From contig PTLN01000003.1 of assembly GCA_002938125.1 (NCBI GenBank), positions 1 to 39,380 of the forward strand: DNA of 39,380 nucleotides, read 5' to 3'. Within the stretch, counting starts at the first letter, position 1; every line of letters starts with the position of its first letter. The notes beneath the pieces were generated by a model. That model saw only the letters and a program-made list of their open reading frames with translations. It was not told where the DNA came from and ran no database searches. The position numbers and the translations under genes were made by a program. Positions 11,841 through 34,390 of the stretch are shown here, in pieces. This stretch comes from Alphaproteobacteria bacterium MarineAlpha2_Bin1 (GTDB lineage Bacteria; Pseudomonadota; Alphaproteobacteria; SHVP01).

Positions 11841-13112
11841 TTAATTAGCACTGACTTTAATTATATCTTGCCATCTAGTGGTAAATTTAGAGGATACATT
11901 ATGTTGTTTCATTTTCCATTCAGATTTTTTACTTTTTATTCCTAATTCTAAACAATTTCTTCCAAATTTTTCGTTAATTTTATCAATTGCTTCCATTAAC
12001 CGATAATTTTCTTTTTTAGCATCGGGAAAGAAACCAGGTATAATTGTTTGTTTGGGGAAAAGATCAAGTAATAAAATACCTCCTTTTCTATATAAATAAT
12101 TTTCTTTCCACAGTCTATTAAATATTTTTCGTGCTTCTAGTACTAGTATTATACTATCAGACGTTGGCGTTATTAGAGTATTTGTTGCACTGTTAGAGTA
12201 CTGTTTAGTATTTTTATTAAATCTATCTGTAGATATAAAGACTTGGATGGACTGACATGCTAGTTTTTTTTTTCGAATTTTTGATGCTGCTATTTGTACA
12301 AATAGCCTGATGGCATCAAATACTTTTTCCTTTTCTCTGACTTCTTTACCAAAAGTACGAGAGCAACGGACAGATTTATTTTGTATTGGTTCTACTTCTA
12401 ATCTATGACAGGGTATACCCTTTATTTCTTTCAGAGTTCTTAGTCCTGTGATACCCATTTTTTTACGTACCCAGTGCTCAGAAGATTTTTTGAGTTCTAA
12501 AGCATTACGGATTTTATTTACATGAAGCATTTTAGACCATTGTCTTCCTATGCCCCAAATATCTTCGATATGTATATTTTGTAAAATCCTATCTATTTTA
12601 TTATCATTTATATTATGAAGGCTAAAAACTCCTTTAGTTGCTATATCTGATTTTGCTATTTTATTAGCAACTTTGGCCAATGTTTTAGTAGGTCCAATTC
12701 CTATTGATACCGGTATTCCTACCCATTTAAATATTGTTTGACGTATTTTTTCACACCATTTAACTGGATCATTTGTAATTAATTTGAGATCAAGAAAGCA
12801 TTCATCAATACTATATATTTCAATATCTGGGCACTTTTCTGCTAATATGCTCATTACCCTTGATGACATATCTCCGTAAAGTGCGTAATTAGATGAAAAC
12901 GTAATTATATCATGTTTTTGAATGATATCTTTTATTTTGAAAACAGGCACACCCATACTAATACCAAGTTTTTTTGCTTCTTGGGATCGTGCTATCACAC
13001 ATCCATCGTTATTGGAAAGGACTATTAAAGGCTTTTCATTTAATTCTGGTTGGAATACTCTTTCACAAGATGCATAGAAGTTATTACAGTCAATTAAGGC
13101 AAACATCGACAT
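11841..13112 (-). CDS. umuC: DNA polymerase V catalytic subunit (Y-family)
   Basis: 423 aa; MFALIDCNNFYASCERVF, EIYSIDECFLDL, GPTKTLAKVANKIAK; 4 bp downstream of umuD. Confidence 0.96.
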   Translation of the reverse strand: MSMFALIDCNNFYASCERVFQPELNEKPLIVLSNNDGCVIARSQEAKKLGISMGVPVFKIKDIIQKHDIITFSSNYALYGDMSSRVMSILAEKCPDIEIYSIDECFLDLKLITNDPVKWCEKIRQTIFKWVGIPVSIGIGPTKTLAKVANKIAKSDIATKGVFSLHNINDNKIDRILQNIHIEDIWGIGRQWSKMLHVNKIRNALELKKSSEHWVRKKMGITGLRTLKEIKGIPCHRLEVEPIQNKSVRCSRTFGKEVREKEKVFDAIRLFVQIAASKIRKKKLACQSIQVFISTDRFNKNTKQYSNSATNTLITPTSDSIILVLEARKIFNRLWKENYLYRKGGILLLDLFPKQTIIPGFFPDAKKENYRLMEAIDKINEKFGRNCLELGIKSKKSEWKMKQHNVSSKFTTRWQDIIKVSAN

Positions 13113-13116
13113 TTTA

Positions 13117-13539
13117 CTATCGGTTATAATGTTTTCTTATACTATGGATCACGACTCCCCAAATTTCACATCCATTTTCATCAATAGGTATGTCAGGAAA
13201 TAAACTATTTTCAGCAGATAATAACCAAGAATCATTTATTTTCTTGAGACGCTTTAAAGTAAGATCACCTTGAATAACTGCAATAACAATATCTTTCTCT
13301 TGTGGATAAAGACTTCTATCAACAATCAGTAGATCTCCATTAAATATTCCTGAGTTTTTCATCGATTCACCTTCAACGCGCGCAAAAAAAGTAGCTGCTG
13401 GCTTTTTTATTAAATATTCATTTAAATCTAATTTACCCTCAGTATGGTCATCTGCTGGACTAGGGAATCCTGCAGAAACGTTAGATCCATACACAATTAA
13501 TGGCATTTTGGAAGGCTTTTTATTGGCAAATAAAATCAT
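13117..13539 (-). CDS. umuD: UmuD/LexA-family S24 peptidase, Pol V accessory subunit
   Basis: 140 aa; Ala-Gly cleavage-type site NVSAGFPSPADD, catalytic Ser in GESMKNSGI, catalytic Lys in GDLTLKRL; operon with umuC. Confidence 0.95.
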   Translation of the reverse strand: MILFANKKPSKMPLIVYGSNVSAGFPSPADDHTEGKLDLNEYLIKKPAATFFARVEGESMKNSGIFNGDLLIVDRSLYPQEKDIVIAVIQGDLTLKRLKKINDSWLLSAENSLFPDIPIDENGCEIWGVVIHSIRKHYNR

Positions 13540-13561
13540 AGATATCCTCTAATTATAACTA

Positions 13562-13576
13562 GAACAAATCATGAAC
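13562..13576. promoter_or_regulatory. LexA (SOS) box, alphaproteobacterial type GAAC-N7-GAAC, in the umuD/alkB divergent intergenic region
   Basis: Plus strand GAACAAATCATGAAC; on the umuD strand GTTCATGATTTGTTC, matching the GTTC-N7-GTTC direct repeat; 23 bp upstream of the umuD start. Confidence 0.88.
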
Positions 13577-13644
13577 ATATGTTATAAATTGTCAAGGAAG
13601 TTTATAAAAAATTATATTCTTAATGATTATTTTGGGTAAAAAAG

Positions 13645-14220
13645 TTGATAGAAAAGCAAAAAATACCAGAAACAAATATATTTCTATACAGAGGTTTCTA
13701 TTCAAATCAAGAAACTTTAGAAGTAATGAAAGAATTAAAGAAAGAAATAGAATGGAAAGAAGTAAAAATAAAGTTATTTGGAAAAGAGTATTTATCACCA
13801 AGGTTAAGTGCTTGGTATGGAGAAAAATCATATAAGTACTCCGGGTATAGATGGGAACAGAGGCCCTGTCCTAAAAGCATAATAAGAATAAAAAAAAATA
13901 TTGAAAAATTAACATTGCTAAAATTTAATGGTGTATTAGCAAACTTATATAGAAGTGGTCAGGATTCAATGGGTTGGCACTCAGATGATGAGAAAGAACT
14001 AGGATCTCAACCTATAATTGCTTCGATAGTTTTTGGGGCAACAAGAAGATTCTTACTGAGAGATAAAAAAATAAAAAATAAGAAAAAAGAAATTAAATTT
14101 GAAGATGGAGATCTTATGTTGATGGGTTCCGGTGTCCAAAAGTGTTGGGAGCATTCAATACCAAAAACAGCAAAGAGCGTAGGAGAAAGAATAAATTTAA
14201 CATTTAGATTAATTTATTAA
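13645..14220 (+). CDS. alkB: 2OG-Fe(II) dioxygenase, AlkB-type alkylated-DNA repair protein (ALKBH2/3-like)
   Basis: 191 aa; LSAWYGEKSYKYSGYRW, FNGVLANLYRSGQDSMGWHSDDEKELGSQPIIASIVFGATRRF, WEHSIPK, GERINLTFR (HxD...H...RxNxTFR); TTG start. Confidence 0.9.
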   Translation: MIEKQKIPETNIFLYRGFYSNQETLEVMKELKKEIEWKEVKIKLFGKEYLSPRLSAWYGEKSYKYSGYRWEQRPCPKSIIRIKKNIEKLTLLKFNGVLANLYRSGQDSMGWHSDDEKELGSQPIIASIVFGATRRFLLRDKKIKNKKKEIKFEDGDLMLMGSGVQKCWEHSIPKTAKSVGERINLTFRLIY

Positions 14221-33167: not shown

Positions 33168-34390
33168 AATTCTTCACCTCTAGGATCTAGATTATTAATA
33201 ATTGGACTTGTTTTTGGCATTGCTACATAATCTGACTGCATATCTGCAGATAATGAATCTCTTTGTGACATTCTCCAAATAATAATAGCTGCAGTTAAAA
33301 TTCCAATTCCTGAGAAGAAACTAAATAGACCTGAAGAATTTGTGAATTCAATAATTAAAGAGGCAAATAAAGGGCCTATAATAGCTCCTATACCGTAAGC
33401 TATTACTAAACCACTCGTTGCAGAAAGTAATTCATCTTTATTTAAATAATCATTTGTATAAGCAACTCCTAATGGATACATTAATGCAATTAAACCACCA
33501 AAAATAATAGAAAGAATTAAAAATAAATAGATATTTGAGTTAAAGATACTTATTAAAATAGAAATTGTTATTAAAAGAATTGCTACTGCAAGCATGAATT
33601 TTCTTCTATCTTTACCATCAGAGATTTTTCCCACAGGCCACTGTAAAATTAGGCCACCTATAGTTACACTACTAATAAATAAAGCTGTTGTATTTTTATC
33701 AAAATTATTTAGTTGTGCAAAAACAGGACCAATTGAGTAAAAAGCACCGCTAACAACTCCTCCCATCAAAGCAAATGTCATTCCAGTCGGCGATTTATTC
33801 CAGAGTTTCATTAGGCTAAATTTCTCAATATTAATAATTTCAGGTGGGGGTAATTTGGTAAGAGCAATTGGAATGATTGCGAAAGACATTAATATAGAAA
33901 AAATAATAAAAATCATGAAATCTCTCTCATCCGGAATTTGAAGAATGAATTGTCCTATGCCACTAAAGAGGTAAACAGCAATAATGTAGTATGAAAAAAC
34001 TTGACCTCTATTATTATTAGTTGCTCTGGCATTTAACCAACTTTCAACACACATAAACATCCCAATAGCACATACTCCTATAGTTAGACGAAAGAAACCC
34101 CAGAAAATAAAATGATTTATAAAAATATGAAATAATGTTATTGCAGACATTGTTGAGCCTAAAACAATAAATGAACGTATATGGCCAACAGACTCAATTA
34201 GTTTTTGAACAAAGTAAGGACCAATTATAAAACCTACATAATATTGGGACATAATCAGTCCAATAATCCATGTTGCTATTCCTTCATTTGTTAGTCTTAT
34301 TGCTAAATATGTTGGAAGAGGACCATTTCCAAGCATAAAAATTGCAATTCCAAGTAGTAGTGAGGATATAGATATTAGATTTTTAGTCAT
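33158..34390 (-). CDS. Major facilitator superfamily transporter
   Basis: 410 aa, about 12 TM segments; QWPVGKISDGKDRRKFMLAVAIL. Confidence 0.88.
   Translation of the reverse strand: MTKNLISISSLLLGIAIFMLGNGPLPTYLAIRLTNEGIATWIIGLIMSQYYVGFIIGPYFVQKLIESVGHIRSFIVLGSTMSAITLFHIFINHFIFWGFFRLTIGVCAIGMFMCVESWLNARATNNNRGQVFSYYIIAVYLFSGIGQFILQIPDERDFMIFIIFSILMSFAIIPIALTKLPPPEIINIEKFSLMKLWNKSPTGMTFALMGGVVSGAFYSIGPVFAQLNNFDKNTTALFISSVTIGGLILQWPVGKISDGKDRRKFMLAVAILLITISILISIFNSNIYLFLILSIIFGGLIALMYPLGVAYTNDYLNKDELLSATSGLVIAYGIGAIIGPLFASLIIEFTNSSGLFSFFSGIGILTAAIIIWRMSQRDSLSADMQSDYVAMPKTSPIINNLDPRGEELKN

Follow-up and report, generated by a model that had tools for sequence, protein, structure and literature searches.

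A candidate LexA operator between divergent umuDC and ALKBH3-like dioxygenase genes in an alphaproteobacterial genus

Introduction

The window analysed here is a stretch of 39,380 nucleotides from Alphaproteobacteria bacterium MarineAlpha2_Bin1 (contig PTLN01000003.1). Within it, a 105-bp spacer (13540-13644) separates umuDC, on the reverse strand, from a gene for an ALKBH3/2-like dioxygenase on the forward strand, referred to as alkB, and a putative LexA box lies between them. This arrangement raises the question of whether one LexA operator acts on both genes, as a sequence-only reading of the same DNA had proposed. If alkB responds, alkylation damage would be met through the SOS response, and the same blocking lesions would be repaired directly and bypassed in an error-prone manner under a common switch.

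Genes flanking the spacer

The identities of the flanking genes were assigned by Pfam, NCBIfam and PDB comparison, in agreement with the earlier identification of umuDC and an ALKBH2/3-like alkB. The product of umuD is a self-cleaving-type S24 protein with PF00717 as its only domain; the A-G cleavage site, the GESM serine motif and the TLKR lysine motif are all present, a DNA-binding domain is absent, and the gene adjoins umuC. The possibility that UmuD represses its own gene, in the manner of Acinetobacter UmuDAb, was rejected on the size of the protein (140 residues) and its lack of a DNA-binding domain. UmuC contains the three Pfam domains of a UmuC-type Y-family polymerase (Table 1); its score against NF002955 (402.9 bits) is slightly below the cut-off of 431, and this is all the same its best NCBIfam model.

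In comparisons with human proteins of known structure, the dioxygenase is closest to ALKBH3 (E 9e-36), followed by ALKBH2 (5e-25). The iron- and 2-oxoglutarate-binding motifs align, with the HxD motif, the distal His and RxNxTxR present, whereas the E. coli AlkB models give 27 bits against cut-offs of 231-267. On its sequence, the protein is ALKBH2/3-like and not E. coli-AlkB-like, and is predicted to belong to the 1meA/3meC DNA demethylase class. The window alkB starts at 13645 with TTG, whereas the aligned codon is ATG in the closest named relative, 'Rhodospirillaceae bacterium SP279' (genome G002, locus L053 = G002:C15; hereafter SP279), which additionally has an in-frame GTG upstream. The TTG start may lower translation of the window alkB.

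Table 1. Features of the umuDC/alkB locus and of related boxes. Positions without a locus name are those of the window.
Feature	Position	Strand	Remarks
umuC	11841..13112	-	423 aa; PF00817 (IMS), PF11799 (IMS_C), PF13438 (DUF4113)
umuD	13117..13539	-	140 aa; S24 peptidase, PF00717 6e-30; NF007621 147.5 bits, cut-off 110
AGAGGA, likely umuD ribosome-binding site	13543..13548	-	from sequence; kept in SP279
TATAAT, earlier proposed umuD -10	13552..13557	-	without a -35 at proper distance
Putative LexA box GAACAAATCATGAAC	13562..13576	.	GTTC-N7-GTTC on umuD strand; sole exact match in window, top matrix score, kept in SP279
Best umuD promoter candidate, TTGACA-N16-CATGAT	13568..13595	-	10/12 consensus; also in SP279
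Proposed alkB promoter, TTGTCA-N18-TATATT	13589..13618	+	10/12 in window; doubtful
ALKBH3/ALKBH2-like Fe(II)/2-oxoglutarate dioxygenase (alkB)	13645..14220	+	191 aa, TTG start; PF13532 2e-33
imuA-imuB/AlkB-like boxes	L162 1224-1238; L209 2202-2216		
rnpB/mraZ site	L104 1501-1515; L120 1501-1515; L090 1501-1515		

The putative LexA box

As the earlier reading had reported, an exact GAAC-N7-GAAC direct repeat, the alphaproteobacterial type of LexA box, is found between umuD and alkB at 13562-13576. This is the sole exact match on either strand of the window, for which shuffling gives an expectation of 0.53. A weight matrix was built from 17 LexA-type sites belonging to lexA, recA, imuA and umuD of relatives, with the umuD/alkB spacer sites left out; it ranks the site at 13562 first in the window with 17.6 bits, the training sites scoring 16.1-22.8. 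The runner-up, GAACAAAGTAAGGAC at 34207, has a mismatch and lies within a transporter-like gene, and was discarded. A second element, GAACATATGTTA at 13573-13584, overlaps the box and is one mismatch away from the LexA palindrome of the Gram-positive type; the central part of this element, AACATATGTT, is perfectly palindromic over 10 bp and is kept in SP279. The Gram-positive-type reading was set aside, as the lexA sites of the genus fit GAACN7GAAC.

A chance match to which LexA does not bind would be consistent with the genome-wide counts: the 1.87-Mb draft contains 25 matches to GAACN7GAAC and 50 to the reversed control, and the bare motif is not enriched over that control in these genomes. 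The case for the box therefore rests on its position and its company. Both argue against coincidence, which is very improbable and was dismissed in view of the position, the conservation and the type of operator: in simulation, 0.0008 exact matches are expected per 105 bp at the composition of the spacer, the site precedes an SOS gene, the box is conserved in SP279, and lexA of the genus carries the same operator.

The operators of related genomes provide that company. Two members of the genus (G001 and SP279) encode a LexA with a Pfam DNA-binding domain, and each lexA has two exact boxes just before its start, GAACAATGATAGAAC and GTTCTATTTTTGTTC in SP279. Upstream of recA, in the window's own genome (G000) and in SP279, a conserved near-match with one mismatch, GAACAAAACAAGTAC, is observed. 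One or two exact boxes precede imuA in six other family members, and an exact box lies upstream of two distant alphaproteobacterial umuD genes (in G038 and G017). Taken together, the lexA boxes of the genus, the recA near-match and the imuA boxes of the family make the operator assignment sound. The box in the window resembles the operators at lexA, recA and imuA in motif and in placement before an SOS gene; it differs in that it would serve umuDC, in whose place imuA-imuB and DinB-like genes are found in the rest of the family. The window's own genome, which is 84% complete, yielded no lexA; the presence of LexA is therefore presumed from the sister genomes. The other S24 match in this genome (contig C133; 102 aa) looks like a signal-peptidase-type S24/S26 protein and was rejected as lexA. 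On these grounds, it is highly probable that 13562-13576 is the LexA operator of umuDC.

A candidate umuD promoter

The best umuD promoter candidate, TTGACA-N16-CATGAT, has its -10 and start region spanned by the box, which lies 22 bp from the umuD start codon; the box thus lies over the core of a candidate promoter of an SOS gene. A transcript from this promoter would retain the AGAGGA ribosome-binding site. The elements described in the sequence-only reading, ATTATA (13552-13557), TTGTCA (13589-13594) and TATATT (13613-13618), are all in place. The first of these, read as TATAAT on the umuD strand, had been suggested as the -10 of umuD, an assignment that is less likely: the distance between TATAAT and TTGACA is 32 bp, TATAAT lacks a usable -35, and a start driven by it is predicted at about 13545, inside AGAGGA, which would cut off the ribosome-binding site. 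TTGACA-N16-CATGAT is therefore the better candidate on sequence, with TATAAT a less likely second.

We infer LexA binding, repression of umuDC and SOS induction from this layout. In the undamaged cell, LexA would cover the -10 and start region of the umuD promoter; upon DNA damage, activated RecA would bring about self-cleavage of LexA, and UmuD and UmuC would be made. The operator and the control of umuDC by LexA are very likely. The divergent ALKBH3-like gene might share in this control to some extent, since the spacer that LexA would occupy is common to both promoters, and the chance that it does so appears about even.

Comparison with SP279 and the proposed alkB promoter

The whole umuDC/box/alkB arrangement is retained in SP279, with UmuC 91% identical and approximately 90% identity across the neighbouring genes. 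The expectation that the box accompanies the gene pair in relatives is thus borne out, in one relative only. A 77-bp run, 13537-13613, which includes the box and the umuD promoter, is identical in the two species. Identical runs of similar length occur elsewhere in the comparison, for example 102 bp within umuC, so this identity does not single out the box. The alkB-proximal part of the spacer, 13614-13644, has diverged.

This divergence affects the promoter that had been proposed for alkB. No pair comparable to TTGTCA-N18-TATATT is present in SP279, the sole relative keeping the gene pair, where the -10 region has diverged, and the proposal is not upheld by conservation. With this candidate not conserved, the suggestion that LexA controls alkB derives from the 105 bp that the two genes share. 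Of the single SOS switch envisaged for both genes, the umuDC half is strongly supported, whereas repression of alkB is a plausible conjecture.

Two readings of the box are consequently weighed here. LexA at 13562-13576 might repress both divergent promoters, which would make alkB a true SOS gene. The location of the box inside a common spacer and the retention of gene pair and box together in SP279 point in this direction; against it, the alkB start is 68 bp beyond the box, the box is upstream of the best alkB -35 and not under it, and SP279 does not retain that promoter. Repression of both promoters is, on balance, evenly poised. Alternatively, the box might be the operator of umuDC alone, the alkB promoter being constitutive or otherwise regulated and the divergent placement incidental. 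Such a restricted role, which fits the position of the box over the umuD promoter, close to the umuD start, and the divergence of the alkB-proximal spacer between the two species, is a realistic possibility somewhat short of even; the shortness of the spacer speaks against it, as does the recurrence of the pairing of an AlkB-like gene with an SOS polymerase operon (see below).

Distribution of the gene pair and a parallel arrangement

Among 385 genomes of the class, 33 have some match to the ALKBH3-like gene; leaving aside the genus itself, roughly ten of these are close. The search recovered the gene from none of the eight remaining genomes of the order. Outside the genus, no ALKBH3-like locus examined in the 385 genomes (flanks of approximately 1.5 kb) adjoins umuDC, and within the genomes searched the umuDC-alkB pair is restricted to this genus. 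None of the remaining close AlkB homologues in the class adjoins an exact box, a point against shared control. Searches with either protein gave no relatives in viral contigs, and in plasmids and phages only distant ones (<51% identity); no viral or mobile source of the umuDC/alkB cassette was found.

UmuD proper is found in few of 60 relatives, the other family members being matched through LexA alone. UmuC is the sole Y-family polymerase detected in the window's genome and in SP279 (a single IMS match per genome), whereas other family members have DinB-like and/or ImuB genes in place of umuDC. This smaller-genome genus thus presents a replacement of translesion polymerases, with UmuC instead of DinB-like/ImuB.

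A parallel arrangement is observed in two genomes of one genus from another order (G321 and G397), in which a distant PF13532 AlkB-like gene is divergent from imuA-imuB, with the exact box GTTCTATTTTTGTTC between the genes; imuA lies 26 bp away from this box and the start of the dioxygenase gene 91 bp. Like the window, these loci have a translesion operon and a PF13532 gene diverging around an exact GTTC-N7-GTTC box, and the geometry is alike: the box is close to the translesion gene (22 bp in the window, 26 bp there) and far from the dioxygenase (68 versus 91 bp). Unlike the window, the operon is imuA-imuB, the AlkB-like protein is only approximately 23% identical, and the order is another one, from which a separate origin of the pair is concluded. 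This parallel favours shared control in the window; however, imuA alone explains the box in G321 and G397, and the pair is therefore no proof of dioxygenase control. Tentatively, coupling of a polymerase operon to an AlkB gene around one LexA operator may have arisen more than once in Alphaproteobacteria, with SOS inducing both alkyl reversal and bypass. Because it recurs with imuA-imuB in a second alphaproteobacterial genus, such coupling could be tested as a pattern. What concerns umuDC is routine SOS biology, and the recurrent pairing of translesion-synthesis and AlkB genes is a modest extra point.

Comparison with known systems

In Sinorhizobium meliloti, a single box reportedly serves both uvrA and ssb. 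Similar to the window, two divergent DNA-repair genes share a short region in an alphaproteobacterial SOS system; the genes themselves are different. These divergent uvrA-ssb promoters are cited in PMC1839093.

Control of an alkB gene by the SOS response is not new as such, being known from Actinobacteria. In Streptomyces venezuelae, alkB is under LexA control, for which ChIP-seq and expression give support (PMC9380542), and in M. tuberculosis, alkB (Rv1000c) shows RecA-dependent induction (PMC8151990). Both cases resemble the one proposed for the window in that an AlkB-family gene belongs to the SOS regulon, and they lend support to shared control. They differ in that the operator is of the actinobacterial LexA type and the gene is not described as divergent from a polymerase operon; furthermore, their regulation is backed by expression data, whereas the window case is known from sequence. 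No description of umuDC or imuAB divergent from alkB was found in the open-access literature.

Other exact boxes in the genus

In SP279, 31 exact matches to the box are present, and nearly all except the lexA and umuD/alkB sites are within genes. Those outside long open reading frames are the two lexA sites, the site in the umuD/alkB spacer, a match in the interval from rnpB to mraZ, another at a distance of 221 bp from a small gene, and a last one without a nearby gene start. The rnpB/mraZ site, an exact GAACN7GAAC just 3' of rnpB and approximately 150 bp upstream of mraZ of the cell-division cluster, recurs in each of the three genomes of the genus; it could either act as an SOS operator or belong to the end of rnpB.
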